Below are positions 58,338 through 63,134 of a stretch of DNA of 64,000 nt, piece after piece. The notes beneath the pieces were generated by a model. The model was given only the letters and a program-made list of their open reading frames with translations, was not told where the DNA came from and made no database searches. This stretch comes from an uncultured Sphingorhabdus sp. GTDB taxonomy: Bacteria; Pseudomonadota; Alphaproteobacteria; Sphingomonadales; Sphingomonadaceae. The position numbers were made by a program, and so were the translations under genes. The stretch spans positions 248,001-312,000 of the forward strand of contig CANMXN010000001.1 in NCBI GenBank assembly GCA_947501885.1, written 5' to 3'. Each line of letters starts with the position of its first letter. Positions within the stretch are counted from its first letter, which is position 1.

Positions 58338-58742
58338 TTACATATAACGCTGTGCGGTTTCTTGAATAAGCGCAATCATATTGGGTATACCCTGTGTGCG
58401 GTTGGATGATAATTGCGCTGTCAGGTTAAATGGGATAAGTTTTTCTGTGATATTTATCTTACTAATATCACTTGCGGACTTGCCTTGAACGCTAAGCAAA
58501 ACAAGTGCGATAATACCTTTGGTTATGGATGCATTGCTATCAGCTAGAAAGTTTAGGCCACCATCGTCATTTTGTGTCGGATAAACCCATACCGATGCGC
58601 TGCATCCGCGCACCAGTGTCGCATCATTTTTGAGTGCGTCAGGCATTTCGGGTAATTCACGGCCCAAATCGATTAGCAATCGATAACGATCATCCGCATC
58701 AAGAAAGTCATATTCTTCATATATCTCATCTAGCCTATTCAT
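58338..58742 (-). CDS. sufE: SufE-family cysteine desulfurase sulfur acceptor
   Basis: 134 aa. The sulfur-accepting Cys lies in LVRGCSASVWV near 47-48, the diagnostic motif. DRYRLLIDLGRELPEMP precedes it, and RTQGIPNMIALIQ closes the fold. It takes persulfide from SufS for Fe-S cluster assembly; no other suf gene is near. It lies 80 bp beyond the last psp-array gene on the same strand. Confidence 0.9.
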   Translation of the reverse strand: MNRLDEIYEEYDFLDADDRYRLLIDLGRELPEMPDALKNDATLVRGCSASVWVYPTQNDDGGLNFLADSNASITKGIIALVLLSVQGKSASDISKINITEKLIPFNLTAQLSSNRTQGIPNMIALIQETAQRYM

Positions 58743-58822: not shown

Positions 58823-59068
58823 TTAAAGATCAATTCCTGCCGCAATTGCTTCTAATTTGCGCACTCTTTCTTTAAGGTCTGCGACTTCAATGCGCGACAT
58901 GGTCGATGGCTGCGCAGGATTGTTGTCATCTTTTAAGTGCTGCTGCAACTCTTCGCGTTTAAATGCCATCCATTCATTCCAGATTCGCATAGCGCTATAT
59001 GCCAAAATTGTCATGGTCATAAGAGCGAGGCTGGCGATCATAATATAAAATTGACTATCTTGGTTCAT
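58823..59068 (-). CDS. Small membrane/coiled-coil protein, fifth accessory gene of the psp operon
   Basis: 81 aa. One membrane segment (about 8-28), an amphipathic WNEWMAFKREELQQ like that of the 59378-59653 protein, and a C-terminal coiled coil DLKERVRKLEAIAAG that matches the shared tail but lacks the final EIExLR. The ribosome site is AAGGAG, and the gap to the preceding gene is 24 bp. PspB-like in layout (short anchor plus coiled coil). Confidence 0.8.
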   Translation of the reverse strand: MNQDSQFYIMIASLALMTMTILAYSAMRIWNEWMAFKREELQQHLKDDNNPAQPSTMSRIEVADLKERVRKLEAIAAGIDL

Positions 59069-59092
59069 CTCAGCTCCTTCTCCTGATCGGGA

Positions 59093-59359
59093 TTATTTGC
59101 TTCTTAATTGTTCAATTTCTCTGTCTAAATCGATTGCTTTGTTGTTATCAGTGGCAATACGTTCCAATGTTTGGACACGTTGTTTTAATTCTTTTACTTC
59201 CAAAAGCTGTTGCTTATTGTCATGAGAATTCAGTGGTTTTTTATTACCATCTTTATCTTCTATAATACCACTATCCGCCATATATTTATATTTAGCGCGT
59301 AATACGATGGTAATACAGCATGCTATAACTATTGCAGCGACCATTTCGTACGAATTCAT
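59093..59359 (-). CDS. Small membrane/coiled-coil protein, fourth accessory gene of the psp operon
   Basis: 88 aa. Hydrophobic segment 6-20, a short polar stretch, then a coiled coil with LKQRVQTLERIATDNNKA and REIEQLRSK at the end, a clear version of the shared tail. Ribosome site GAGGAA; 18 bp after the preceding gene. I do not recognise a named family beyond PspB-like. Confidence 0.82.
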   Translation of the reverse strand: MNSYEMVAAIVIACCITIVLRAKYKYMADSGIIEDKDGNKKPLNSHDNKQQLLEVKELKQRVQTLERIATDNNKAIDLDREIEQLRSK

Positions 59360-59377
59360 ATTTGTTTCCTCTTTATC

Positions 59378-59653
59378 TTAATTCAGTGGTTCATCACGCA
59401 GATCTTCTATTTCTTCTGCTAGATAGGTTGCTTTGTCGGTTACCAAACGTTCCAAAACTTGAACGCGCTTTTCTAAATAATCTGTTTTTGCGGTATATTG
59501 AGCAGATTTTTCTGCTGTTAATTGGGTTTGCACCTGCAATTGCTCACGCTTATATTGTATCCAAGGTTTTACGAAGACATGCCCTACAACGGCTACAAAT
59601 CCTAGGGATATGCCTAATGTAATAGCCAATATAGGTATTAATATGGGGTCCAT
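59378..59653 (-). CDS. Small membrane/coiled-coil protein, third accessory gene of the psp operon
   Basis: 91 aa. Membrane segment about 4-26, then PWIQYKREQLQVQ (paralogous to the last gene's segment) and a coiled coil with LEKRVQVLERLVTDKATYL and EEIEDLRDE. Ribosome site AAGGAAA; 9 bp after the preceding gene. Confidence 0.84.
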   Translation of the reverse strand: MDPILIPILAITLGISLGFVAVVGHVFVKPWIQYKREQLQVQTQLTAEKSAQYTAKTDYLEKRVQVLERLVTDKATYLAEEIEDLRDEPLN

Positions 59654-59662
59654 GATATTTCC

Positions 59663-60001
59663 TTAATGTTTGTCTATTGTACGCAAAGATTCAATCTCTG
59701 TACTAAGATGACGGGTGTCTTCGACAATGATCTTTTCAACATTGGCAAGCCTGTCTTTGAAAGATCCCAATTCGGCGCGTAATTGTGCATTTTCTTGACT
59801 TAATAATTTCACGCGTTCAACAGCCTCTTGATCTGTCTTGGGGTAAACCGTCTGTCCCCAAGCACCATCCAATGGATAGCCATTTTTGATGCGTAATCGG
59901 GTGGTGTAAACCCATCCTGCTACGCTTGCTGCGCCAATTGCTAATGCTCCAAAAATTATGGCTGGAACATAAGGTAAGATTTCTGCTGCTGCGGGTGTCA
60001 T
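59663..60001 (-). CDS. Small membrane/coiled-coil protein, second accessory gene of the psp operon
   Basis: 112 aa. Membrane segment about 10-32, then LRIKNGYPLDGAWGQ, a motif shared with the 60014-60304 protein, KTDQEAVERVKLLSQENAQL, and the tail RLANVEKIIVEDTRHLSTEI ending ESLR. The two proteins are clear paralogues along their whole length. Ribosome site AGGAAA. Confidence 0.85.
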   Translation of the reverse strand: MTPAAAEILPYVPAIIFGALAIGAASVAGWVYTTRLRIKNGYPLDGAWGQTVYPKTDQEAVERVKLLSQENAQLRAELGSFKDRLANVEKIIVEDTRHLSTEIESLRTIDKH

Positions 60002-60013
60002 TATTTTTTCCTA

Positions 60014-60304
60014 TTATCTTAAATTTTCTATTTCTTCAGAAAGGCGCGTTGATTTATCGGTCGCAATACGTTCCAATACGGCTATTCTTTCTTCTAAATG
60101 GGTTATTTTCCCAGTAAGATTTTCATTTTCATTGCTAAGAAGTTCAATCTTGCGGTTTGCCTCTTGGTCAGAGGGTTTGGTTTTCCCGCCCCATTCATCT
60201 TCTAGGTCATATCCATGCCTTGCTCGCAACCAGTTGTTAATTACCCAACCGCCTGTGGAGATGGCAATAATCGCGATTACAAAAAACGGACTCCCCCAAC
60301 TCAT
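60014..60304 (-). CDS. Small membrane/coiled-coil protein, first accessory gene of the psp operon
   Basis: 96 aa. Membrane segment about 5-24, LRARHGYDLEDEWGG, PSDQEANRKIELLSNENENL and the tail RIAVLERIATDKSTRLSEEI ending ENLR. Strong ribosome site AGGAGGAA; 24 bp after pspC. The tail resembles E. coli PspB (its region around RIQALESIL), so this may be a divergent PspB. Confidence 0.87.
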   Translation of the reverse strand: MSWGSPFFVIAIIAISTGGWVINNWLRARHGYDLEDEWGGKTKPSDQEANRKIELLSNENENLTGKITHLEERIAVLERIATDKSTRLSEEIENLR

Positions 60305-60328
60305 ATATTCCTCCTGTTAAATTCTAAC

Positions 60329-60709
60329 TTATTTTAGGCTATCGATTTCATCTGCCAGCTGTTTATTATTGCTAGTATAATAAATCTCCAGATCGGCCAA
60401 ACGATGATCGATATCACGAAATTGTGATTTTAATTCACGTGTTGTGCGGGCGGGTGATTGCCGCACACCCTGCCAAAATTTTTGTTGTTCACTATTTTCA
60501 TACATATGCAGCGGTTTTTTATCAGCAACCACAGCCGCGACAACATAAGCAATGGGAATTAAGGGACCGCCAACCATGAAAGTTAGCATAACAGCGCCTA
60601 TTCTAATCCATGCAGAATCTATACCAGTATAATCAGCAATTCCTGCGCAAACGCCTTTGATTTTGGCATTTTGTTTATCGAGGTAAAACTTGGTTCTATC
60701 GCTAGGCAT
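60329..60709 (-). CDS. pspC: Phage shock protein C (PspC domain)
   Basis: 126 aa. PspC domain at about 7-70: FYLDKQNAKIKGVCAGIADY, WIRIGAVMLTFMVGGPLIPI, with one membrane segment and VVADKKP after it. In Enterobacteria PspC with PspB senses inner-membrane stress and releases PspF by binding PspA. Unusually, the C-terminus DHRLADLEIYYTSNNKQLAD then EIDSLK has the same pattern as the tails of the accessory proteins. Starts 2 bp after pspB. Confidence 0.92.
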   Translation of the reverse strand: MPSDRTKFYLDKQNAKIKGVCAGIADYTGIDSAWIRIGAVMLTFMVGGPLIPIAYVVAAVVADKKPLHMYENSEQQKFWQGVRQSPARTTRELKSQFRDIDHRLADLEIYYTSNNKQLADEIDSLK

Positions 60710-60711
60710 TT

Positions 60712-61002
60712 TCAGTTTCTCCCTTCGAACTGATCATCATTTTTGGTTAAATATTTGGTACTATTTTCATCACTAAGGCGCCGCGGAGACCATTCGGGAT
60801 TATCCTGAGCTGTTAAGCGTTCAACGGTTTCTAGGCGTTCTTCGAGACGGCGGCCTAATGCATTCATTTCATCAAGTATTCGTTCATCATCATTGGTGAG
60901 CGTCGCTGCTGTTTTCCATTTGGTAACATAATGAAATATCATCCAGGGTAGACCGAGGAAAATTGTGGGAACTACCACGATGGGGACAATGATATCTTCC
61001 AT
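60712..61002 (-). CDS. pspB: Phage shock protein B
   Basis: 96 aa. Membrane segment 5-25 (VPIVVVPTIFLGLPWMIFHY), then the PspB helix with ALGRRLEERLETVERLTAQD and NPEWSPRRL, which aligns with the ...ALESILDAEHPNW region of E. coli PspB. The C-terminal 20 aa are an extra polar tail. Starts 3 bp after pspA. Confidence 0.92.
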   Translation of the reverse strand: MEDIIVPIVVVPTIFLGLPWMIFHYVTKWKTAATLTNDDERILDEMNALGRRLEERLETVERLTAQDNPEWSPRRLSDENSTKYLTKNDDQFEGRN

Positions 61003-61005
61003 ATT

Positions 61006-61683
61006 TTAAACTTCTTTCTTTGTATCTAATGCTTTTTTCATGGCTTCTAATTCTTCATCAATTTCATCAACCGATTCCAAAGCGGCGATTTCATCACCTA
61101 GAGACTGTGGAGCTTCACTGCCCATACCCATGGCATCAGCACGTCCTTCTGTATAATCAACTTCACGTTCCAAAACATCAAAACGAGAGAAAGCTTCTTG
61201 AACTTTATCGCCATTATACATGGTGCGTAATTTCACTCTATTCTCTGCGCTTTCTAGGCGGGTCATCAGACCATTTTGACGGGAACGCGCATCGGCTAGT
61301 TTCTTTTGCAGCATGGCAATATCTTTTTCATTGGCTCTTAAAGCATCGCTTAATACTTTAACCTCTGCACTTAATTGAAAATGCATTTCACTGGCCTTGC
61401 GTTTCTCAACAAGCGCTGCTTTTGCCAAATCTTCACGTCCTTTTGATAGCGCTAATTGCGCTTTCTCAGTCCAATCATTCTGCAAAGCATCCAATTTATC
61501 AATATGCCGCTGTAATTCTTTTTTGTCTGCAATGGTTCTGGCAGCAGAAGCACGAACTTCAACCAATGTTTCTTCCATCTCTAAAATGATCATGCGGATC
61601 ATCTTCATCGGGTCTTCCGATTTGTCGAGCATGTCGGCAAAATTGGCAGCAACTATGTCGCGTGTTCGTGAAAATATACCCAT
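61006..61683 (-). CDS. pspA: Phage shock protein A
   Basis: 225 aa from the ATG at 61683, with GGAG seven bases upstream, giving the canonical MGIFSRTRDIVAANFADMLD and MEETLVEVRASAARTIADKK. The entire protein is helical coiled coil, as expected for this ESCRT-III-like membrane-remodelling factor, which also inhibits PspF. The frame remains open a further 70-80 codons upstream (see the separate entry), so a longer form is possible. Confidence 0.95.
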   Translation of the reverse strand: MGIFSRTRDIVAANFADMLDKSEDPMKMIRMIILEMEETLVEVRASAARTIADKKELQRHIDKLDALQNDWTEKAQLALSKGREDLAKAALVEKRKASEMHFQLSAEVKVLSDALRANEKDIAMLQKKLADARSRQNGLMTRLESAENRVKLRTMYNGDKVQEAFSRFDVLEREVDYTEGRADAMGMGSEAPQSLGDEIAALESVDEIDEELEAMKKALDTKKEV

Positions 61684-61893
61684 AGGGAAACTCCGTTTTG
61701 TTTGTAGGTATTGGCGAGAAGATTCTATTGTTTCATTTCTTGTATAGAGAGCAGCGATCGGAGCCAAGGCTTTTTGAGGTGAGAGGTCCTCATTTGGGGG
61801 AATTGGAGCAAGCTCCGATCGCATCGCTGGGTCGCTTGCTGGAGTTCTGGGAGGATTTCCATTATTTGACCCTGGAGAGAGATTATTGTTCAT
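61684..61893 (-). other. pspA leader: in-frame upstream extension and inverted repeat
   Basis: From ATG 61893 (TAGGA eight bases upstream) 70 codons run without a stop into the pspA start, encoding a Pro/Asn/Ser-rich, disordered-looking segment beginning MNNNLSPGSNNGNPP. The same stretch contains a perfect 11-bp inverted repeat (GCGATCGGAGC 61754-61764, GCTCCGATCGC 61812-61822) with a 47-nt interval. Either a long PspA isoform, a leader peptide, or a structured 5' UTR. Frames on the other strand look like shadows. Confidence 0.5.
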
Positions 61894-61946
61894 TTTATAA
61901 TTCCTATGATGAAACTCCATCATTTATTACTGTTTGGTTATTACTA

Positions 61947-61962
61947 AGCATGAAGTATGCCA
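61947..61962 (-). promoter_or_regulatory. Sigma-54 promoter of the psp operon
   Basis: On the minus strand TGGCATACTTCATGCT matches the -24/-12 consensus TGGCAYRNNNNTTGCW at all but one defined position. It predicts a start near 61936, about 250 nt upstream of pspA. The divergent gene encodes the matching sigma-54 activator. Confidence 0.8.
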
Positions 61963-62023: not shown

Positions 62024-62062
62024 ATTGCCAACAATCTGAATTTAATGCTAATGTTTGGCAAT
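62024..62062. promoter_or_regulatory. Inverted repeat overlapping the pspF start
   Basis: ATTGCCAACA (62024-62033) and TGTTTGGCAAT (62052-62062) are reverse complements apart from one extra A, and the right half covers the pspF ATG. It lies 60-115 bp upstream of the sigma-54 promoter, in reach of a PspF upstream activating site; it could also serve autoregulation. Confidence 0.5.
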
Positions 62063-63134
62063 GGAAAGATCGAGTCAATTCATCGGACAATCTACAGCAT
62101 TTCTTGATGCTTTAGACCGTGCTAGTCAAGCTGCTGTATTAGAGCGTCCTGTTTTGGTTGTGGGTGAGCGTGGTACAGGCAAAGAGCTGATAGCGGAACG
62201 TTTGCATCGCCTGAGTTTGCGCTGGGATGGACCGCTAGTAACTATGAATTGTGCAGCTTTGCCAGAAACTCTTATAGAAGCGGAATTATTCGGTCATGAA
62301 GCTGGCGCTTTTACTGGTGCTACCAAAGCACGGGCAGGGCGATTTGAAGAAGCAGATGGCGGTACCTTATTTCTTGATGAATTAGGAACGCTTAGCATGG
62401 GTGCGCAAGAGAGATTGTTGCGCGCCGTTGAATATGGCGAGATAAATCGTATTGGTTCCTCAAATCCAATAACCGTAGATGTGCGTATAGTAGGAGCTAC
62501 TAATGAAAATCTACCTTTAATGGTTGATAATCACAAATTTAGAGCTGATTTGCTCGATCGCCTATCTTTTGAGGTTATCACCTTACCTCCATTGCGCGCG
62601 CGTGAGGGAGATGTTGAGGTTTTGGCGGAACATTTTGGCAGAAGAATGGCGGCCGAACTGAGTTGGGATAGTTGGCCTGGCTTTGATGATATGGCCAAAA
62701 AAGAGCTAGATGAATATGCATGGCCTGGCAATGTAAGGGAATTGCGCAATGTGGTGGAACGGGCTGTATATCGCTCCGGCAATGCGAATGTTGCTATAAA
62801 CCGCGTTGAATTTGATCCTTTTGAATCGATTTGGACACCAAGCGGTGCCAACTCTTCATCGCTGTCAGCGGGCATAGAAAATGATAATAAAGAAGTAGAG
62901 GTTAGGGATGCAACCTCTTTAGAGGTTGATCAACCCATAGAGGTTGAACAAGAACAATATTTGCCATCTATAGAAATTGATGACTTTAGAAAAGCTTCTG
63001 AAAATTATGAAAAAATGATATTAGAAGCGGCTATGGAGAAGCACCGCTATAATCAGAGGCAAACGGCAGCTTCGCTTAACCTAAGTTATGATCAACTTCG
63101 CCATTGCTTAAAAAAATATGATATGTTGGGATAA
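62061..63134 (+). CDS. pspF: Sigma-54-dependent transcriptional activator PspF
   Basis: 357 aa from the ATG at 62061; a TTG two codons earlier is possible. No N-terminal receiver: the AAA+ domain starts at once, as in PspF. Walker A GERGTGKE, GAFTGATK (sigma-54 contact loop), Walker B GGTLFLDELG, and arginine-finger region follow. A Glu/Val-rich linker (about 265-310) precedes a Fis-type helix-turn-helix (RQTAASLNLSYDQLRHCLKK). Divergent from pspA. The linker is longer than in E. coli PspF. Confidence 0.94.
   Translation: MERSSQFIGQSTAFLDALDRASQAAVLERPVLVVGERGTGKELIAERLHRLSLRWDGPLVTMNCAALPETLIEAELFGHEAGAFTGATKARAGRFEEADGGTLFLDELGTLSMGAQERLLRAVEYGEINRIGSSNPITVDVRIVGATNENLPLMVDNHKFRADLLDRLSFEVITLPPLRAREGDVEVLAEHFGRRMAAELSWDSWPGFDDMAKKELDEYAWPGNVRELRNVVERAVYRSGNANVAINRVEFDPFESIWTPSGANSSSLSAGIENDNKEVEVRDATSLEVDQPIEVEQEQYLPSIEIDDFRKASENYEKMILEAAMEKHRYNQRQTAASLNLSYDQLRHCLKKYDMLG

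Follow-up and report, generated by a model that had tools for sequence, protein, structure and literature searches.

What do five small genes directly behind a phage shock protein (psp) operon contribute to it? The question is raised by a stretch of 64,000 nucleotides from an uncultured Sphingorhabdus sp. of the Sphingomonadaceae (assembly GCA_947501885.1, contig CANMXN010000001.1, positions 248,001 to 312,000), here called the window, in which pspA, pspB and pspC are followed by five genes that we name X1 to X5. A central problem in the Psp field is the switching of PspC between PspB and PspA. We propose, with a probability of about 0.6, that X1 to X5 are accessory inner-membrane Psp components of the Sphingomonadaceae and that X1 to X4 would carry a detached PspC-type contact helix feeding into the PspB-PspC-PspA switch. 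From the genes themselves, their synteny, the likeness of their tails, their retention together with psp and the types that recur across genera, we infer the topology, binding, cotranscription and function that this proposal entails. The cluster is laid out as follows.

61923 down to 58823, minus strand: psp and X gene cluster, in the order pspA, pspB, pspC, X1 to X5
61006-61923, minus strand: pspA open reading frame (ORF; TIGR02977, E 1e-79)
60712-61002, minus strand: pspB, with the first half of the tail (PF06667, E 1e-20)
60329-60709, minus strand: pspC, with a C-terminal tail resembling the X tails (TIGR02978, E 4.3e-37)
60014-60304, minus strand: X1, 96 amino acids (aa); transmembrane (TM) helix, HGYDLEDEWGG linker, long helix and full PspC-type tail
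59663-60001, minus strand: X2, 112 aa; NGYPLDGAWGQ linker and full tail, with X1 as its closest paralogue
59378-59653, minus strand: X3, 91 aa; TM and helix, full tail
59093-59359, minus strand: X4, 88 aa; TM and helix, full tail
58823-59068, minus strand: X5, 81 aa; TM and helix, first half of the tail only (LKERVRKLEAIAAGIDL)

Five tandem small genes past pspA-pspB-pspC had been described in an earlier note on this DNA, and they were recovered at the lengths given there (96, 112, 91, 88 and 81 aa). The intergenic gaps from pspC through X5 are 24, 12, 9, 18 and 24 bp, and across the loci of relatives the gaps between successive X genes have medians of 11-31 bp, which are lower bounds as the first start codon was taken as the start. 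The psp and X genes are likely cotranscribed.

Hydropathy analysis gave one hydrophobic N-terminal segment for each of the five proteins. In the AlphaFold prediction of X1 (mean predicted local distance difference test, pLDDT, of 78), a TM helix at residues 6-30 is followed by a loose linker with the GYxLEDEWGG motif and by a helix at residues 47-95. Scans of X1 to X5 against Pfam and NCBIfam returned nothing above cut-off, and the Pfam scan did not find the PspC domain PF04024 in any of them; X1 to X4 have sub-threshold PspB or PspC matches amid unrelated coiled-coil matches, and X5 has none in either library. The membership in PF06667 (PspB) that the earlier note had suggested searching for was not found, the best X protein reaching 15.8 bits against a cut-off of 25.6, and for the PspB family TIGR02976 14.2 against 51.7. 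Among solved structures, X1 retrieved generic coiled coils, and PspB and PspC retrieved nothing useful. Matches in defence and phage libraries (X3 to a type I specificity subunit, E 0.037; X1 to an unnamed phage family, E 0.006) were taken as coiled-coil noise.

A C-terminal tail shared with PspC

The last 37 or so residues of X1 to X4 form a helix that follows the pattern LE.R...LERI.TD....L..EI..LR or a near variant of it. Along its whole length this tail aligns with the PspC C-terminus, but with PspB and X5 over its first half only, so that the tail which the earlier note had seen as common to the X proteins, PspC and PspB stands in full for X1 to X4 and PspC and in its first half for PspB, while X5 has that half alone. 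In one alignment of PspB, PspC and X1 to X5, R73, E78 and L88 (X1 numbering) are identical in 7/7 proteins. The tail of the PspC family TIGR02978 resembles the X tails in being helical with a pattern R...LE...T...L..E...L, whereas the X proteins differ from PspC in having no PF04024 domain and a different single TM segment. The end of E. coli PspC, RLREMERYVTSDTFTLRSRFRQL, fits the tail pattern by eye.

We built a profile from 31 tails of X1 to X4 and of a sixth type, X0, found in relatives; four rows come from the window, and matches of the profile to X1-X4 are thus given by construction. Searched against the proteins of its own genome, where 29 candidates survived the first filter and were scored, the profile gave six matches at E<=10, namely X1, X3, X2 and X4 (7e-19 to 5e-14; X1, whose own row is in the profile, at 6.8e-19), PspB (0.04) and PspC (0.16). 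Beyond X1 to X4, PspB and PspC were therefore its only matches in the genome at that threshold. In profile-profile comparison with hhalign, the tail profile scored 94% with PspC, 28% with PspB, 4% with PspA and 0.1% with SufE. The likeness of the tails thus exceeds what chance would give. Taken family by family, hhalign against PspC gave 90% for X2, 76% for X1, 49% for X3, 29% for X4 and 0.2% for X5. Shuffling the cytoplasmic portion of either PspC or PspB column by column reached the observed score in 0/100 trials with each of three query profiles.

The strict motif R[ILVM]xx[ILVM]E is present in nearly all members of each type (PspB 34/35, PspC 34/34, X0 6/6, X1 33/33, X2 24/24, X3 18/18, X4 30/31, X5 32/33) and in 0/45 SufE. 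A reading of this RhxxhE motif as a trimer code was set aside; the pattern also occurs in 49/53 PspA. Exchanges between N-terminal halves and tails were too few to lean on: both parts belong to the same family in 498 of 513 classified proteins, a set that counts some genomes twice, and of the 15 others 8 are clear. By eye, the X4 proteins of two loci (L074 and L077) have a foreign N-terminus.

Retention with psp and relatives outside the family

PspB is present in 55 of 61 genomes, comprising that of the window and 60 relatives, and neighbourhoods were drawn for 53 of the other 54 PspB genomes (G014 was omitted, and G010 is represented by one of its two sites). In the window's genus, 35 loci including the window were taken on the basis of PspB, and each holds at least one X gene; by type, and with some loci cut by contig ends, X1 was counted in 33, X2 in 24, X3 in 18, X4 in 31, X5 in 33 and X0 in 6. 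A second scan, selected by X1, kept the best 80 of 271 relatives and thus does not represent the weaker 191. The titles of these 80 named loci comprise Sphingorhabdus, Sphingomonas, Sphingobium, Sphingopyxis, Blastomonas, Parasphingopyxis, Parasphingorhabdus, Novosphingobium, unnamed sphingomonads and two metagenome-assembled genomes labelled 'Proteobacteria'. In all 80, pspB, pspC and X1 occur together, with a weak match for a single PspB and a single PspC, and pspA was found in 78, X2 in 62, X3 in 57, X4 in 75, X5 in 78 and sufE in 67. The number of X genes per named locus is 2-7, contig-cut loci included. The X gene set is old, since all 80 loci, from several sphingomonad genera, hold pspB, pspC and X1, and the expanded psp operon of the earlier note is borne out, as is linkage to psp across the family. 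At one locus (L070:5243-5461, genome G044) a tail-less PspC of 72 aa lies between pspA and pspB.

We then asked whether the tail and PspB are kept together in 199 genomes of the family, where this small-protein family without a curated name was detected by the tail profile in 182 and PspB in 184. Both are present in 179, neither in 12, PspB only in 5 and the tail only in 3 (Fisher p 4.5e-13, uncorrected for kinship). The 12 genomes with neither span 7 genera, a few being incomplete, and none of these 12 has a PspA match, in an examination that covered the 17 tail-negative genomes. Of the 8 discordant genomes, 6 are explained by contig edges (G537, G628, G507 and G523, G628 having a cut, weakly matching tail gene past pspC) or by carrying X5, which falls outside the coverage of the tail profile (G516 and G556). 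Two are clean exceptions: G491 has pspABC and then sufE, without X genes, and G483 (L279:2622-2888) has pspA, a tail-less PspC and then two tail genes, with no PspB.

The X types are themselves kept apart across genera. For a tree on 79 columns, 83 proteins were taken from 11 named loci, from the window and L074 and from 13 solo genes, described below. Supported branches set X2, X3 and X5 each apart from the rest (Shimodaira-Hasegawa-like approximate likelihood ratio test 97, 99 and 100), X1 is nearly set apart in this way, and X4 is scattered. As separate types are kept across genera, the X proteins are unlikely to be interchangeable copies. The pairing of X1 with X2 as sub-paralogues, suggested in the earlier note, is well supported; its pairing of X3 with X5 finds no support, as the score of X5 is 90% against X4 but 82% against X3 and the tree does not join X3 with X5.

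X1 to X4 are closer to a separate family of single genes sited away from psp, here called solo genes, than they are to PspB; against the solo family, X4 scored 99% in hhalign, and X1 likewise. The solo protein has one TM segment and the tail, belongs to no curated family, and gave PspB or PspC profile matches below cut-off in 7/7 proteins scanned. With its few columns the tree does not resolve the deep order, and the solo family is only a possible source of the X genes. Among 246 genomes of the order, 57 from other families have one or two tail genes. Of 19 psp loci outside the family, 17 have no nearby tail gene, and the two that have one come from genomes of a family that we label f8. In the genomes of other families that were inspected, the solo gene is sited elsewhere, for example beside rpoD-like or GAF-domain-like genes by eye. 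The possibility, raised in the earlier note, that relatives would have these genes apart from psp is thus realised outside the Sphingomonadaceae, but not within them.

At larger distances, only 7 of 385 genomes of the class had a match to the tail profile (E<=0.001), and the same family accounts for 5 of these, the window's own genome included. With the solo profile, 49 of 398 genomes of the phylum matched (E<=1e-4), and 22 of the 49 lie beyond the class. That these 22 are Gammaproteobacteria is a guess. Outside the class, mostly one or two such genes occur per genome where they are found, and solo tail genes were seen in this number at L244, L251, L253, L256, L258, L260 and L266; in one such genome, G1066, 7 kb of sequence gave no psp match. 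Tandem pairs of solo tail genes were seen at L170 and L224 (G243 and G651), where the 3 kb surveyed contain no psp gene.

In f8, PspC is present in 24 of 27 genomes examined. Fifteen of them have a second PspC directly after pspC, which ends just past the PspC domain and is tail-less (L290, L292, L296-L299, L301-L303, L305-L310), and in 13 of these genomes, all but G665 and G646, a tail gene comes next. Where f8 has a single full PspC, a tail gene adjoins it in 0 of 8 (Fisher p 9e-5 for the contrast, from which G677 was dropped because of a contig end).

Roles considered for the X proteins

The C-terminal part of PspC has been studied in Yersinia and E. coli. According to the accessible text of PMC5596341, the cytoplasmic C-terminal domain of Yersinia PspC binds PspA when the system is on. 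A 2016 paper in its reference list states in its title that cytoplasmic PspB-PspC contacts silence the response. In E. coli, the accessible part of PMC3068692 reports that a PspC leucine zipper (residues 77-98) is needed for interaction with PspA and that PspG contacts PspC. This zipper lies mostly just before the tail, which was matched at residues 95-109.

Under our proposal, each X protein would consist of a short N-terminus, one TM helix and a variable linker, to which X1 to X4 would add a copy of the helix that ends PspC. Through these four proteins, the contact helix would be present at the membrane in further copies, on other anchors. The extra helices could join or compete in the contacts between PspB, PspC and PspA, offering docking for PspA, PspB and PspC, and could thereby determine at what point the switch responds and how much PspA can be held. 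The differing N-terminal parts of the X proteins could give different inputs or locations, and X5, with a half tail as in PspB, may act in a more PspB-like way. The X proteins could then be part of a hetero-oligomeric membrane complex with the Psp proteins, as the earlier note had imagined.

Several observations weigh against this proposal. The X tail is likely cytoplasmic, but the charge bias past the TM segment is weak, with 0 K/R before it in all five proteins and, in the next 15 residues after it, 2-3 K/R and 0-4 D/E; the AlphaFold prediction of PspC was unusable (pLDDT 49), and, contrary to a purely cytoplasmic tail, the accessible part of PMC3068692 gives the C-terminal region of E. coli PspC a periplasmic location or two topologies. 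The match to PspC spans about 35 coiled-coil residues, and the RhxxhE motif of the tails is, as given above, also found in PspA. Scored against just the two proteins of E. coli (Z 4000), the tail profile gave E 0.012 for PspB and E 11 for PspC. X1 scored 30% with PspB, X3 scored 65% with PspB over 64 columns including the TM segment (14% with other settings), and for X5 neither PspB nor PspC gave a profile match. The solo family scored 60% with PspC, 40% with PspA and 12% with PspB, a generic coiled-coil likeness, and its genes lie apart from psp in other families, where the tail may have no part in Psp. Finally, the f8 contrast tracks genus: it may be one event, since all eight single-PspC genomes belong to genus g17 and none of the fifteen others does.

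Among the closest known proteins is PspB (PF06667, TIGR02976), which the X proteins resemble in size, in having one TM segment and then a helix, in the first tail half and in sharing the operon. Might they then be duplicated PspB, each pairing with PspC as an extra PspB? X3 and X4 gave sub-threshold PspB matches in both Pfam and NCBIfam, X1 did so in NCBIfam, the solo family has such matches too, and the X3-PspB score just given points the same way. Ravi et al. 2024 (PMC11237479), in the accessible part of the paper, report 'PspB duplicates' in psp operons (e.g. AOL22920.1) and a PspC fused to a divergent PspB; the extra PspB-like psp genes are common to that account and ours, whereas a shared tail, a family-wide set, joint loss and a solo family do not appear in that part. 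The AOL22920.1 locus may be of the X type. We nevertheless consider an extra-PspB role unlikely. All X proteins fall under the curated cut-offs, and all five lack the D..P.W ending that follows the R...E motif in PspB; X1 to X4 have in its place TD....L..EI..LR or near, the latter half of the tail of PspC. The tail profile scores better with PspC (94%) than with PspB (28%), and a recognisable PspB is also present in 80/80 named loci. The earlier note's duplicated PspB-like unit thus keeps the support of X3, but not of the cut-offs, the ending, the tail or the closeness of X1 to X4 to the solo family. No other paper near this arrangement, and none on the X gene set itself, was found in the open-licence literature searched, and the main text of PMC9239133, as far as accessible, contains neither 'alphaproteobacteria' nor 'sphingomonad'.

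A different role would be that of effectors rather than regulators, with the X proteins serving as membrane anchors that recruit and spread PspA at the damaged membrane in the manner of PspD and PspG, which are likewise small proteins of the psp regulon in enterobacteria. The X genes come after pspC, as does E. coli pspD, a copy number of 2-7 per locus would suit dosage, and the tail is that of a PspA-binding partner; yet X2, X3 and X5 remain separate across genera, beyond what a bulk anchor would need, and we regard this role as doubtful though worth keeping in view. Far less credit is due to the idea that the likeness of the tails is a convergent coiled coil and the X genes are passengers of a conserved operon. 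The helical region is short, the solo family scored 40% with PspA, and sufE also accompanies the operon in 67/80 loci, all of which would fit. However, the tail profile is specific within its own genome, the column-shuffle null gave 0/100, the PspA control scored 4% with the tail profile, X genes are absent together with psp in 7 genera, and a tail gene stands beside a tail-less PspC in f8 and in G483.

Our proposal of accessory Psp components with a PspC-type helix suggests that the control part of a membrane-stress system has been multiplied in sphingomonads. A more speculative extension, to which we give rather little weight, is that the PspC tail is a detachable, exchangeable output module: sphingomonad membrane proteins with different sensing ends would report separate kinds of damage to one PspA pool, and the tail-less PspC with a tail protein in f8 and G483 would be a split PspC. 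With the contact helix kept in several additional copies on various membrane proteins, and with the tail-less PspC beside a tail gene, these bacteria provide natural variants for testing the PspC switch.

Control region and flanking genes

Three further features flank the cluster.

62055-63134, plus strand: divergent pspF-like activator with a GAFTGA motif, ORF and motif by reading only
61947-61962, minus strand: candidate sigma-54 site TGGCATACTTCATGCT (GG-N10-GC) upstream of pspA, weak, with 3 mismatches to the consensus
58338-58742, minus strand: sufE, the next gene past X5 (PF02657, E 2e-32)

The pspA ORF is probably over-long at its 5' end, since the TIGR02977 match starts at residue 81 and GGAG precedes the ATG at 61683; the canonical start is probably at 61683, and the in-frame upstream extension of 80 aa (61684-61923) would be leader. 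Sigma-54-type patterns are not enriched in the window as a whole (106 found, 105 expected). In the 320 bp upstream of pspA, examined in 118 regions that count some genomes twice, 30 regions have a site with 11 or 12 of 12 matches, compared with about 0.1 expected from mononucleotide shuffles, and 29 have no site.

Zymomonas is presumably to be placed among the sphingomonads. Its psp genes respond to ethanol, xylose and temperature, as stated in the accessible parts of published accounts, parts in which the X genes are not named.

The sufE gene adjoins the psp-X operon in 67/80 named loci, some loci being cut by contig ends, and is probably a neighbour of the operon rather than part of it.

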